A stretch of DNA of 64,000 bases. Source: Bacillus sp. 103mf. Its GTDB lineage: Bacteria; Bacillota; Bacilli; Bacillales; Bacillaceae_G. The stretch covers positions 62,001 through 126,000 of the forward strand of contig NZ_FPAF01000008.1 of the NCBI RefSeq assembly GCF_900116295.1, given 5' to 3'. Below, one piece after another: positions 19,366-60,292 of the stretch (the stretch's first letter is position 1; the number at the start of each line of letters is the position of its first letter). Under the pieces are notes generated by a model. It was not told the DNA's origin and made no database searches. It saw only the letters and a program-made list of their open reading frames with translations. Both the position numbers and the translations under genes were made by a program.

Positions 19366-19778
19366 AAAAACGAGCTCCTTAAGTTTACTAAAATGGATAC
19401 TTTTGCGTACATGGGACCCTTTTATTGGACATAATTAGTCACTCTAAATATTTTTATCTAAACTTTAATATAATTCTCTTTGATTTTCATATGCCACAAG
19501 ATACACCTTTACTCAATGAAAATAATGATTTAATAGTTCTATAATTTTATATTTACAGTAGTTTGAAGATCCAATCCACACCCCCTTTTCAGAATTATCT
19601 ATATTTTACACCTAACATACTATCACACAAAATTTCCTCCTACTATCTTCATAAAGTTGAAATAATAAAATTAGAAAATTTAGACAAAAAACACCTACAA
19701 AATTTTTGATAATAACTATTTATCAATGTTTTTCCATAGGATTTTAGTTTAGAGATTCATATCTTTCTACAAAAAAAT
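19366..19778. other. Intergenic region between krsE and the his leader
   Basis: About 410 nt of AT-rich DNA that should contain the krs operon promoter (minus strand). I see no convincing sigma-A box pair for krsE. The segment around 19586-19598 has TTTTCAGAA, the core of a CodY-type site, but outer positions do not match well. Published work places krs under NprR-NprX and stationary-phase control; I could not identify an NprR box by eye. No ORF with a ribosome site was seen. Confidence 0.5.
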
Positions 19779-19811
19779 TTGATAATTCAAACATCAAGTA
19801 GTATACTACTT
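19779..19811 (+). promoter_or_regulatory. Sigma-A promoter of the his leader/hisS2, with palindrome over the -10
   Basis: TTGATA (19779-19784), a 17-nt spacer and TATACT (19802-19807) form a near-consensus sigma-A promoter. Transcription should start near 19814, about 22 nt before the leader ORF. The -10 sits inside the perfect 16-nt palindrome AAGTAGTATACTACTT (19796-19811), so a dimeric regulator could also act here; that part is inference. Confidence 0.7.
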
Positions 19812-19835
19812 AAAAAGCTATAGGAGAGATTGCTT

Positions 19836-19880
19836 ATGTTTAGAATAGATTGTTCTTTCCAACTTCATCATCATACATAA
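19836..19880 (+). CDS. His-rich attenuator leader peptide
   Basis: A 14-codon ORF encoding MFRIDCSFQLHHHT, with three consecutive His codons just before the stop. The ribosome site GGAGAG lies 9 nt upstream of ATG. Its position between a strong promoter and a set of alternative hairpins ending in an intrinsic terminator before a histidyl-tRNA synthetase gene marks it as a sensor of charged tRNA-His. The peptide itself probably has no function after translation. Confidence 0.82.
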   Translation: MFRIDCSFQLHHHT

Positions 19881-19891
19881 AGCCTTGTATC

Positions 19892-19989
19892 CGAAGAATT
19901 TTTTCTTCGTGGGTACAGGGTTATTCCTGTTTACCCACGAAGCGACTATAAAGCTATGTGGGTATTTTCATACCCGCATAGCTTTTTTT
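19892..19989 (+). promoter_or_regulatory. Ribosome-mediated attenuator of hisS2 (alternative hairpins plus terminator)
   Basis: Five segments can pair in exclusive ways. S0 CGAAGAA (19892-19898) pairs with TTCTTCG (19903-19909). S1 (19905-19919) pairs over 15 bp with S2 (19926-19942). S2 TACCCAC (19932-19938) pairs with GTGGGTA in S3 (19958-19964). S3 (19950-19965) pairs over 16 bp with S4 (19970-19985), followed by a T run: an intrinsic terminator. A ribosome at the leader stop codon would cover up to S0, favouring S1:S2 and the terminator. A ribosome stalled at His codons leaves S0 free to capture S1, releasing S2 to form the antiterminator with S3. The pairings are seen; the switching logic is inference. 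Confidence 0.75.
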
Positions 19990-20011
19990 ATTTCAAAAAG
20001 GAGTGATAAAC

Positions 20012-21310
20012 ATGAACTTGCAAAATGTAAAAGGAACAAAAGACTATTTACCGGAAGAACAAACACTGCGTAATACAATTAAACGGATTTGTGAAGAAAC
20101 ATTCGAAGCTTATGGCTGCAAACCATTAGAAACACCTATTTTGAACATGTATGATTTGATGGCTTATAAATACGGAGGAGGATCTGAAATTTTAAAGGAG
20201 ATGTACACGCTTCAAGATCAAGGGAATCGTGAGCTTGCACTGCGTTATGATTTAACTATTCCCTTTGCAAAGGTTGTTGCTATGAATCCAGAAATCCGCC
20301 TTCCTTTTAAACGTTATGAAATTGGGAAAGTATTTCGAAACGGCCCAATTAAGCAAGGGAGATTTCGAGAATTCGTACAGTGTGATGTAGATATTGTTGG
20401 CGTTGAATCCGTCTTAGCAGAAGCAGAATTAATGGTAATGGCTCTTGATATTTTTAACAAATTGAACTTAGACGTAACCATTCAATATAATAATCGAAAA
20501 CTATTAATAGGATTGTTACAAGCGATTCAAATCCCTGAATCACAGGTACAAGATGTTATTTTATCTGTAGATAAACTTGAGAAAATCGGCATTGACGGTG
20601 TAAGAAATGATTTAATAAATCGAGAGATACAAAGTGAAACGATTGATATATTATGTAAGACGTTAGAAACATGTATATCTATGCCACTTTCTGAATTTAA
20701 TAAAGCGTTCCCTAATCCTCTTGTTAAAGAAGGAGTTACTGAACTTCAAGAACTTAGGCAATACTTAATTGCACTTGGAATACAATCTAATACAATGTTT
20801 TCTCCTTTTCTTGCACGAGGGCTCACAATGTATACCGGAACGATTTATGAAATTTTTTTAACCGATGGCAGTATTACTTCTAGCATTGGTAGTGGTGGGC
20901 GCTACGATCACATTATTGGCGCATTTCGAAATGATAATAAATCTTATCCGACAGTTGGAATCTCATTTGGTTTAGACGTCATTTATACTGCTCTTATCCA
21001 AAAAGAATGTGCCTCCTCTTCTGTCGATATCTTTATCATTCCACTCGGAACACAGGCAAAGTGTTTAAAAATCGCTCACACATTGCGAACAAATGAAAAT
21101 TTAAAGATAGAGCTTGAACTAGCAAATCGTAAACTAAAACGAGCTCTTAACTATGCAAACAAAGAAAACATTCCATATGTACTTATTATTGGTGAAGAAG
21201 AAATAAATAACGATGTAGCTGTTTTACGAAATATGAAGGAAGGAACAGAACAAACGATTCCTCTTGCTTGTATTGAAAATGGAACTTTCAAACAATATTT
21301 ATGTCGTTAA
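20012..21310 (+). CDS. hisS2: Histidyl-tRNA synthetase, second copy type
   Basis: Class II aminoacyl-tRNA synthetase of 432 residues that charges tRNA-His. Seen: N-terminal NVKGTKDYLP; a motif 2 region with KVFRNGPIKQGRFREF; the His-specific RGLTMYTGTIYE; motif 3 GISFGLDVI; and a C-terminal anticodon-binding fold from about 330. I start at ATG 20012 with AAAAAGGAGTG 6-8 nt upstream; a GTG 9 nt earlier overlaps that site. It stands alone, divergent from the krs operon, and is controlled by the leader attenuator rather than a T-box. Sequence is clearly HisRS but divergent from the usual housekeeping form (for example the motif 2 loop), so a paralogue induced on histidine shortage is the likely role. 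HisZ-like function is unlikely because the anticodon domain is present. Confidence 0.88.
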   Translation: MNLQNVKGTKDYLPEEQTLRNTIKRICEETFEAYGCKPLETPILNMYDLMAYKYGGGSEILKEMYTLQDQGNRELALRYDLTIPFAKVVAMNPEIRLPFKRYEIGKVFRNGPIKQGRFREFVQCDVDIVGVESVLAEAELMVMALDIFNKLNLDVTIQYNNRKLLIGLLQAIQIPESQVQDVILSVDKLEKIGIDGVRNDLINREIQSETIDILCKTLETCISMPLSEFNKAFPNPLVKEGVTELQELRQYLIALGIQSNTMFSPFLARGLTMYTGTIYEIFLTDGSITSSIGSGGRYDHIIGAFRNDNKSYPTVGISFGLDVIYTALIQKECASSSVDIFIIPLGTQAKCLKIAHTLRTNENLKIELELANRKLKRALNYANKENIPYVLIIGEEEINNDVAVLRNMKEGTEQTIPLACIENGTFKQYLCR

Positions 21311-36478: not shown

Positions 36479-36715
36479 AAAAGCCCCTCAATCCTAAAAA
36501 GGACGAGGGACTCCCGCGGTACCACCTTTATTAGCTACAATTTCATAGCTCTCTTTATAATTCGAATAACGTCGAAACAACCGTCAAAGCCTACTCAGTT
36601 CGGCTTGCAGCTCCAGAGCCCATTCTATATTTTTCCCTTACTGATTTTCACCAACCATCAGCTCTCTATGAAGTTCCAAATATGTACTCTTCTCTATCAT
36701 CGCTTTTTCTTTTAT
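36479..36715 (-). promoter_or_regulatory. T-box riboswitch (Trp) of trpS
   Basis: On the minus strand the leader contains the conserved AAGGTGGTACCGCGGG T-box (around 36513-36530), followed by a terminator whose arms are AGTCCCTCGTCC and GGATTGAGGGGCT with a T run (down to 36479). Upstream is a Stem I region with GAATGGGCTCTGGAGC; TGG there is the likely Trp specifier. Uncharged tRNA-Trp should stabilise the antiterminator and switch trpS on. Confidence 0.92.
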
Positions 36716-38521: not shown

Positions 38522-38562
38522 ATTGATTAACTTGGATAAATATGTTAATTTAATTTATATAA

Positions 38563-38700
38563 CCTTTCGCTTAATCCAAATTTCGGAACGGGGAAACCAC
38601 TTCTGTGGCATTTGCCACTTGGGGCGAATCTTTTTTTTAGTAGGGATACTCTCACATTCCGAGTCCGACAGCTAACCTCGTAAGCGTATTGAGAGAGGAA
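38563..38700 (+). promoter_or_regulatory. ydaO-type (c-di-AMP) riboswitch
   Basis: Conserved ydaO blocks appear in order: TCGCTTAATCC, GGAACGGGGAAACCA, TTGGGGCGAATC, TAGGGATACTCTCAC, then CCGACAGCTAACCTCGTAAGCG. This is the c-di-AMP-sensing class, which lowers expression of potassium-uptake or wall-hydrolase genes when c-di-AMP is high. Here the following segment has only an imperfect terminator (AGAGGAAGG / GTTCCTCCTT), and the next gene is a 47-codon ORF of unknown function. Confidence 0.85.
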
Positions 38701-38799
38701 GGTGCTTTTTACTTATGCTACAAAGCGTTCCTCCTTAACTCTAACAATATGTTTTTTATTTACTACAAGTATATTGTTAGATAAAAGGAGATGATTTTC

Positions 38800-59744: not shown

Positions 59745-59778
59745 ATGAATCAACATACTAATGCTATAAAAAAGCAAC

Positions 59779-60019
59779 GAAAAGGACACGAGATATTCTT
59801 ACGGTTTTACAGAGAAGGAAGAATTGCTGAGATCTTCCTAAACGCAGGAGAATATACTTACCACCTTGGAGCTGTATTGGGGAAACAGAGTATCCAATGC
59901 CGTAGACGCTACGTTACAGCGAATGGAGCCATCGACGCTTTTTTAAGTACGATGGGAATCTGGGTGGAACCACGGGTTTTAACGCACTCGTCCCTGTTTT
60001 AGGGATGAGTGCGTTTTTT
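59779..60019 (+). promoter_or_regulatory. T-box riboswitch (Thr), copy 1 of 3
   Basis: Contains GGACACGAGATATTC, the Stem I region with ACC in AATATACTTACCACCTTGG as likely Thr specifier, the T-box GGGTGGAACCACGGG, and terminator AACGCACTCGTCCC/GGGATGAGTGCGTTTTTT. Together the three copies give stepwise control of thrS by uncharged tRNA-Thr. Confidence 0.92.
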
Positions 60020-60050
60020 ATTTTCTTAATTCCATATAACAATTAGCTAT

Positions 60051-60292
60051 GAAAAGGACACGAGATATTCTTACGGTTTTACAGAGAAGGAAGAGTTGCT
60101 GAGATCTTCCTAAACGCAGGAGAATACACTTACCACCTTGGAGCTGTATTGGGGAAACAGAGTATCCAATACCGTAGACGCTACGTTACAGCGAATGGAG
60201 CCATCGATGCTTTTTTAAAGTACGATGGGAATCTGGGTGGAACCACGGGTTTTAACGCACTCGTCCCTATTTTAGGGATGAGTGCGTTTTTT
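60051..60292 (+). promoter_or_regulatory. T-box riboswitch (Thr), copy 2 of 3
   Basis: Starts 272 nt after copy 1 and differs at only a few bases (GAGTTGCTGAG, an extra A before GTACGATGG, CCCTATTTT in the terminator loop). Motifs otherwise identical. Confidence 0.92.

Follow-up and report, generated by a model that had tools for sequence, protein, structure and literature searches.

In Gram-positive bacteria the regulatory task considered here usually falls to T-boxes. The his attenuator of enterobacteria is built on strands A to F, in which B:C and D:E pair for readthrough and C:D and E:F for termination, and its strand A overlaps the His codons. In the bacilli, a His leader preceding hisS* and hisZ was predicted by Naville & Gautheret (2010; PMC2965389), whose account also describes the 5' UTRs of the two genes as similar. 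RNA attenuators of his operons have been described in the B. cereus group, in Peptostreptococcaceae/Lutispora and in Erysipelotrichales (Ashniev 2022, PMC9413887), and his-tRNA-dependent regulation upstream of hisZ has been presented, in terms of RNA triplexes, for B. cereus and its relatives (PMC4833913).

Here we analyze the leader of hisS2 in a 64,000-nt stretch of DNA from Bacillus sp. 103mf (the window). This leader is of a kind already predicted, which we test by comparison and provide with a concrete mechanism. To the earlier picture the analysis adds a wider distribution, counts of base pairs, a geometry that places strand S1 at the stop codon of the leader ORF and the conservation of Gln-Leu just ahead of the His codons.

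Architecture of the hisS2 leader

The initial annotation had reported a leader ORF with three tandem His codons before hisS2, and this ORF is confirmed (Table 1); its codons are ATG TTT AGA ATA GAT TGT TCT TTC CAA CTT CAT CAT CAT ACA TAA. A scan of both strands of the window for ATG-started ORFs of 8-30 codons with a ribosome site (5 of 6 letters) returned 25 short ORFs, only one of which, the leader ORF, combines a run of three identical residues with a terminator within 150 nt. The arrangement of leader ORF and terminator upstream of hisS2 is real and not a product of chance. The promoter stands as a prediction only, since the scan behind it found 10 promoter-like sites against the 11.0 expected from shuffles. 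A perfect 16-nt palindrome, AAGTAGTATACTACTT, overlaps the -10 element at 19796-19811 and is possibly an operator, or else a chance occurrence. The predicted start of the transcript (19812-19821) also shows a 10-nt complement to the 3' arm of the terminator (19978-19987), which is probably due to chance because nine relatives checked lack the pairing, with a longest match of 5 nt in each.

Table 1. Features of the hisS2 leader region, in window coordinates
Feature	Position	Strand	Basis and remarks
Sigma-70-type promoter, TTGATA-17-TATACT	19779-19807	+	consensus scan, 10/12 matches; predicted only
Predicted transcription start	~19813-19815	+	from promoter-like site
Shine-Dalgarno of leader ORF, AGGAGAG	19822-19828	+	sequence; 7 nt before ATG
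Leader ORF, MFRIDCSFQLHHHT*, 14 codons	19836-19880	+	sequence; tandem-His kin before Firmicute hisS2 loci
Three tandem His codons, CAT CAT CAT, putative sensor	19866-19874	+	sequence
Strand S1	19883-19898	+	partner S2; pairing can reach 19881
Strand S2	19903-19920	+	partner S1 or S3
Strand S3	19926-19942	+	partner S2 or S4
Strand S4	19950-19964	+	partner S3 (antiterminator) or S5 (terminator)
Strand S5 and T run, intrinsic terminator	19971-19989	+	S5 19971-19985, T run 19983-19989
hisS2, histidine--tRNA ligase, NF009085/PRK12420 type, 432 aa	20012-21310	+	732 bits against a cutoff of 540

Two nucleotides separate the leader stop codon from S1, the first of the five strands that we call S1 to S5 (S0, 1, 2, 3 and 4 in the initial annotation). 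The two alternative sets of pairings proposed there, one for a terminator and one for an antiterminator, are borne out, as all four complementarities, S1:S2, S2:S3, S3:S4 and S4:S5, are found in the window leader. S2:S3 has an 11-nt perfect core (19905-19915/19932-19942), the core of S3:S4 reads UACCCAC:GUGGGUA, and S4:S5 forms a terminator of 16 bp (hairpin 19950-19985); the antiterminator and the terminator have S4 in common and are mutually exclusive. The folding z-score of the leader is -6.66. We looked in 23 leaders of the window's type for an upstream partner of S1, equivalent to the enterobacterial strand A, and found no complement that exceeds shuffles: the longest upstream complement to S1 in the window measures 6 nt and is equalled in 74/100 shuffles, the lowest row standing at 15/100. 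In the untranslated fold, the end of the His run makes a weak AUACA:UGUAU pairing with S1.

As the initial annotation had stated, the leader holds no recognizable T-box. Neither the T-box (RF00230) nor any riboswitch matches it at Rfam gathering scores, and neither RF00230 nor the enterobacterial His_leader (RF00514) is one of the 12 matches that positions 19700-20100 give at E<=10. We disregarded a weak, sub-threshold match to RF04312, the 'trpB ncRNA motif' (31.6 bits, cutoff 59, E 0.012), for which a literature search found no paper. Elsewhere in the window there are three T-boxes, two of them a tandem pair on the + strand (59768-59998 and 60040-60271, spanning 59768-60271) and one on the - strand (36496-36709), as well as a c-di-AMP riboswitch at 38558-38702 (+).

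Gene, leader and pairings across genomes

The hisS2 product carries the Pfam domains tRNA-synt_His (catalytic) and HGTP_anticodon (anticodon-binding), and the searches of the genome collections returned neither a hisS2 relative above about 61% identity nor any leader from the B. cereus group. Three orders were sampled via Bacillus, Brevibacillus and Paenibacillus loci, and hisS2 was found in 61/397 genomes of the order of G006 and 21/39 of the order of G001 (E limit 1e-90 in both), in 105/392 of the order of G016 (E limit 1e-80; one of the 105, G534, was left out) and in 10/398 genomes of a phylum sample that overlaps the three orders (E limit 1e-80). In Lysinibacillus fusiformis and Planococcus versutus, plasmid records also include hisS2 preceded by a tandem-His leader. 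A tree was built from 53 rows picked by likeness to hisS2, with long branches and unlike composition flagged, the window protein included; it places hisS2 in a Firmicute clade beside archaeal HisRS (Woesearchaeota, Micrarchaeota) and far from the HisS1 of hisS2-bearing genomes; the place of L097, a 46-residue fragment from a broken hisS2 frame, is meaningless. The section of PMC2965389 on this gene regards hisS* as a recent duplication in bacilli. Our tree, although it does not fix the wider rooting, does not agree with a recent duplication confined to bacilli. A T-box is present at seven of eight HisS1-clade loci, sampled from genomes that also have hisS2.

A tandem-His ORF with a ribosome site occurs in 180/245 distinct regions (up to 600 nt) upstream of hisS2. 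By the same loose test, it is found at 176/207 Firmicute loci and at 4/38 non-Firmicute ones, and among these four leaders three His codons occur only in L033, which is without a terminator. The view of the initial annotation that such a leader is unusual for a Firmicute has to be given up, both on this count and because the leader had been predicted in 2010 (PMC2965389). The 31 Firmicute loci without a leader by this test include G219, which has one further upstream. A terminator-like hairpin with a T run is found in 176/177 Firmicute leaders, the window included, by a permissive search that chose a larger overlapping hairpin in a few rows. Codons were counted in 177 leaders, 160 of them distinct, after dropping the non-Firmicute L033, L034, L047 and L060 and four rows not linked to hisS2. 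The selection rule demands two His codons; 145/160 leaders have a third, and the stop codon is TAG in 144/160.

Around the His run, which is retained, the RNA sequence diverges widely between leader groups. In those groups inspected by eye, the first stem has the stop codon at, or within, its 5' edge, and leaders of the Paenibacillus type (75 leaders, judged by eye from the part printed) keep the strand order of the window with a different sequence. Most Bacillaceae leaders belong to a type B (66/93 leaders, sorted by exclusion), whose stop-codon stem sets UAG/UAA opposite CUA/UUA and is 100% paired, after rounding, over 7 columns and 66 rows. In type B leaders, which have this stem and a terminator, no convincing antiterminator was found. 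A candidate pairing of AAUCGNA:UGCGGUU with the 3' arm of the terminator gave a mean longest match of 8.68 (63 leaders) against 8.29 for shuffled partners, with a maximum of 8.62 in 200 shuffles; it is weak and would give the wrong sign of control. In type B leaders, for example L090 and L128, the stop codon belongs to a conserved stem of UAGNCUU with AAGGCUA, which adjoins a purine-rich GGAAGG.

Pairing was counted in an alignment of 19 leaders of the window's type, many of them close relatives, from which four Brevibacillus-type rows of the 23 had been dropped. The share of paired cells is 98.5% for S3:S4, where two of seven pairs have changes on both sides, 98.0% for S4:S5, 90.1% for S2:S3 and 87.6% for S1:S2, a figure lowered by a register that is off by one in the window-type rows; with partners slid by 1-3 columns, pairing is at most 54%. 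For S2:S3 and S4:S5 together, compensatory changes go beyond shuffles: 17 cells are changed on both sides (3.3 in shuffles, 0/500 as high), as are 7 pairs (0/500), and there are 20 further pair types (19/500). For S1:S2 and S3:S4, changed cells number 18 (5.6 in shuffles, 0/500 as high), the 4 pairs changed on both sides are equalled by 252/500 shuffles and so do not exceed them, and the 13 further pair types lie below the shuffle mean of 18.0. The S3:S4 core of the window is replaced by UACCUAC:GUAGGUA in L181, by UACCUGC:GCAGGUA in L097 and by UGCCUGC:GCGGGCA in the Brevibacillus type, but, as S2 resembles S4, these changes are tied to those in S2:S3 and S4:S5.

A covariance model (R1) built from the 19 leaders was used to search 397 genomes of one order; at E<=0.001 it picked up 33 rows, spread over 27 genomes. 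Nineteen rows reach E<=2.5e-10; five are model rows or identical to them, and all 14 further ones have a tandem-His leader, with three His in 12 and two in 2. Eleven of these (L311-L321; 11/397 genomes), in seemingly related genomes and with near-identical leaders, precede hisZ-like genes, for which hisZ is the best NCBIfam match at 155-195 bits, in every case under the cutoff of 271.65. The remaining three precede hisD (above cutoff), a basic amino-acid antiporter-like gene (below cutoff) and, in G219, hisS2 itself at a distance of about 590 nt with two ORFs between. The weaker rows number 14: 3 are antisense to strong matches, and the stretch searched showed no credible His leader for the remaining 11. 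Among the model rows themselves, two (L225 and L231, from G144 and G081) place a His leader and five-strand attenuator before a permease of the Na+/H+ antiporter family, which we take to be YuiF-like, and two others (L305 and L306, at the same places as L226 and L230) have a leader MLRLLI(V/I)AQLHHHT before a 163-aa ORF, without a Pfam or NCBIfam match in the case of L305.

Ribosome position and the proposed choice of fold

The make-up and conservation of the leader, the counts of pairs and the histidine-related genes that carry the element argue for a ribosome-mediated transcription attenuator, a reading to which we assign a probability of about 0.8. Events in cells, from translation and stalling through the sequence of pairings to termination or readthrough, would then run as follows. 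RNA polymerase would transcribe the leader with its five alternately pairing strands while a ribosome translates MFRIDCSFQLHHHT. With charged His-tRNA scarce, the ribosome would stall on the His codons, its leading edge at about 19879-19882 and S1 free, S1:S2 would form as S2 emerges, S3 would be available for S4, and S3:S4 would pre-empt the terminator S4:S5, allowing hisS2 to be transcribed. With His-tRNA charged, the ribosome would reach the stop codon, its edge at about 19891 covering about half of S1, S2:S3 would pair, and S4 would be free to form the terminator S4:S5. In essence, this is the model put forward in the initial annotation. The edges follow from known ribosome footprint sizes, ~19879 when the A site holds the first His codon and ~19891 at the stop codon. 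Since S1 begins right after the stop codon, a strand would be blocked by the ribosome at that codon and not by the stalled one. What stands of the initial description 'E. coli style' is attenuation by a leader with His codons; as to the layout it implied, the His codons lie in no pairing strand found, and S1 comes just after the stop codon.

Folding computations bear out a switch in part of the settings only. Before S3 is made, the free RNA has -22.9 kcal/mol, with S1:S2 formed, for a stall at the first His codon, and -7.7 at the stop codon. At equilibrium, S2:S3 is favoured at every ribosome position once S3 but not S4 is made, and S3:S4 with S1:S2 or its remnant is favoured everywhere, stop codon included, once S4 but not S5 is made. 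As equilibrium folding gives no position-dependent outcome, a switch must rest on kinetics. We also ran a toy co-transcriptional folding, a barrier-limited script of our own with a static ribosome and barriers of 5, 7, 9 and 11 kcal/mol. At 5 kcal/mol, stalls at the first and second His codons yield S1:S2 and S3:S4, a stall at the third yields S2:S3, and a ribosome at the Thr or stop codon yields S2:S3 and the full terminator; at 7, 9 and 11 kcal/mol, S3:S4 forms at all His, Thr and stop positions, so that the switch appears at 5 only. The earlier claim that ribosome position gives the right sign of control finds support in the geometry and at 5 kcal/mol, and none at equilibrium or at 7, 9 and 11. 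In terms of these models, the sign of control seems right by geometry, and the switch would depend on speeds.

The untranslated leader bears on the first of the alternatives, namely that the element follows the enterobacterial his geometry, with a stalled ribosome masking a pairing strand and an untranslated leader terminating. In the toy folding such a leader forms S2:S3, together with a terminator that is partial at 5 kcal/mol and complete at 7, as this alternative would have it, and S3:S4 at 9 and 11, as it would not. The alternating series of strands with His codons just upstream is also in its favour, together with the weak AUACA:UGUAU pairing, but a distance of 9-17 nt separates S1 from the His codons upstream, the 23 leaders lack an S1-complementary upstream stretch beyond shuffles and His_leader is missing from the Rfam matches at E<=10, all of which makes this geometry unlikely here.

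The codons just before the His run bear on two further alternatives. Gln stands at position -2 in 140/160 distinct leaders (CAA 130, CAG 10) and Leu at -1 in 110/160 (CTT 78, CTA 17, CTG 6, TTA 5), and the first His codon is CAT in 159/160. His sensing alone does not account for the conservation of this Gln-Leu. One could suppose that the leader is a riboswitch or a protein-binding attenuator for histidine, with the ORF merely coupling translation, and both its high degree of structure and the retention of Gln and Leu beyond the needs of His sensing would agree with this; yet the His run is kept while the RNA around it differs widely between groups, and no Rfam riboswitch or T-box matches the leader at the thresholds used, so that we consider such a receptor very improbable. 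The notion that a nascent QLHHH peptide arrests the ribosome, the His run being part of the signal, draws on the same two residues and on a Leu written with several codons, but is hardly credible given that Gln is mostly CAA and the first His almost always CAT, which fits selection on RNA as well, and that leaders without QL occur (WVHHH in L224, LQHHH before hisZ).

A broader proposal, to which we would give somewhat less than even odds, is that the window leader represents a widespread class of Firmicute His attenuators whose member in the window has no above-threshold match in Rfam 15. This class would govern a dispersed set of genes (hisS2, hisZ, hisD, the 163-aa gene and two families of permeases) and would be inverted in design, a terminating ribosome masking S1 and an untranslated leader being ON rather than super-attenuated. 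In this proposal the conserved Gln-Leu may serve to tune the stall. Its odds are reduced by the toy folding, in which only the barriers of 9 and 11 kcal/mol leave the untranslated leader ON.

Comparison with described attenuators

The leader described by Naville & Gautheret (2010) agrees with the present one in gene family, in a short ORF with His codons and in a premature terminator; unlike the present analysis, the section devoted to it maps no strands, counts no pairs and sets out no logic of ribosome position (PMC2965389). The attenuators of Ashniev 2022 likewise combine a terminator and an antiterminator with a leader peptide that has three to five His codons, but they belong to his biosynthetic operons, and 'hisS' is absent from the main text of that work (PMC9413887). 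The leader treated in PMC4833913 comes from the same species group, but it precedes hisZ and not hisS2. Ribosome-mediated attenuation in Bacillus is also represented by the bmrB leader of B. subtilis (PMC4191407), and the rli60 ilv-leu attenuator of Listeria provides an experimentally tested case of ribosome-mediated amino-acid attenuation in a Firmicute. As described, rli60 differs from the hisS2 leader in its branched-chain codons, in its four-segment design and in being super-attenuated, with less expression, when the leader is not translated (PMC5864092). For the hisS2 leader itself, we found no experimental test in the open-licence papers searched.

The hisS2 leader offers Gram-positive bacteria a candidate case, and a well-supported one, of classical leader-peptide attenuation. 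One cell would then sense histidine supply through two different RNA mechanisms, each with a HisRS gene of its own lineage, which makes for a natural comparison. With respect to the enterobacterial his attenuator, S1-S5 would match strands B-F, and strand A has no counterpart that we could find in the hisS2 leader; because this counterpart was not found, the untranslated hisS2 leader may read through. The state of the untranslated leader, ON or OFF, would tell the hisS2 design from the enterobacterial one.
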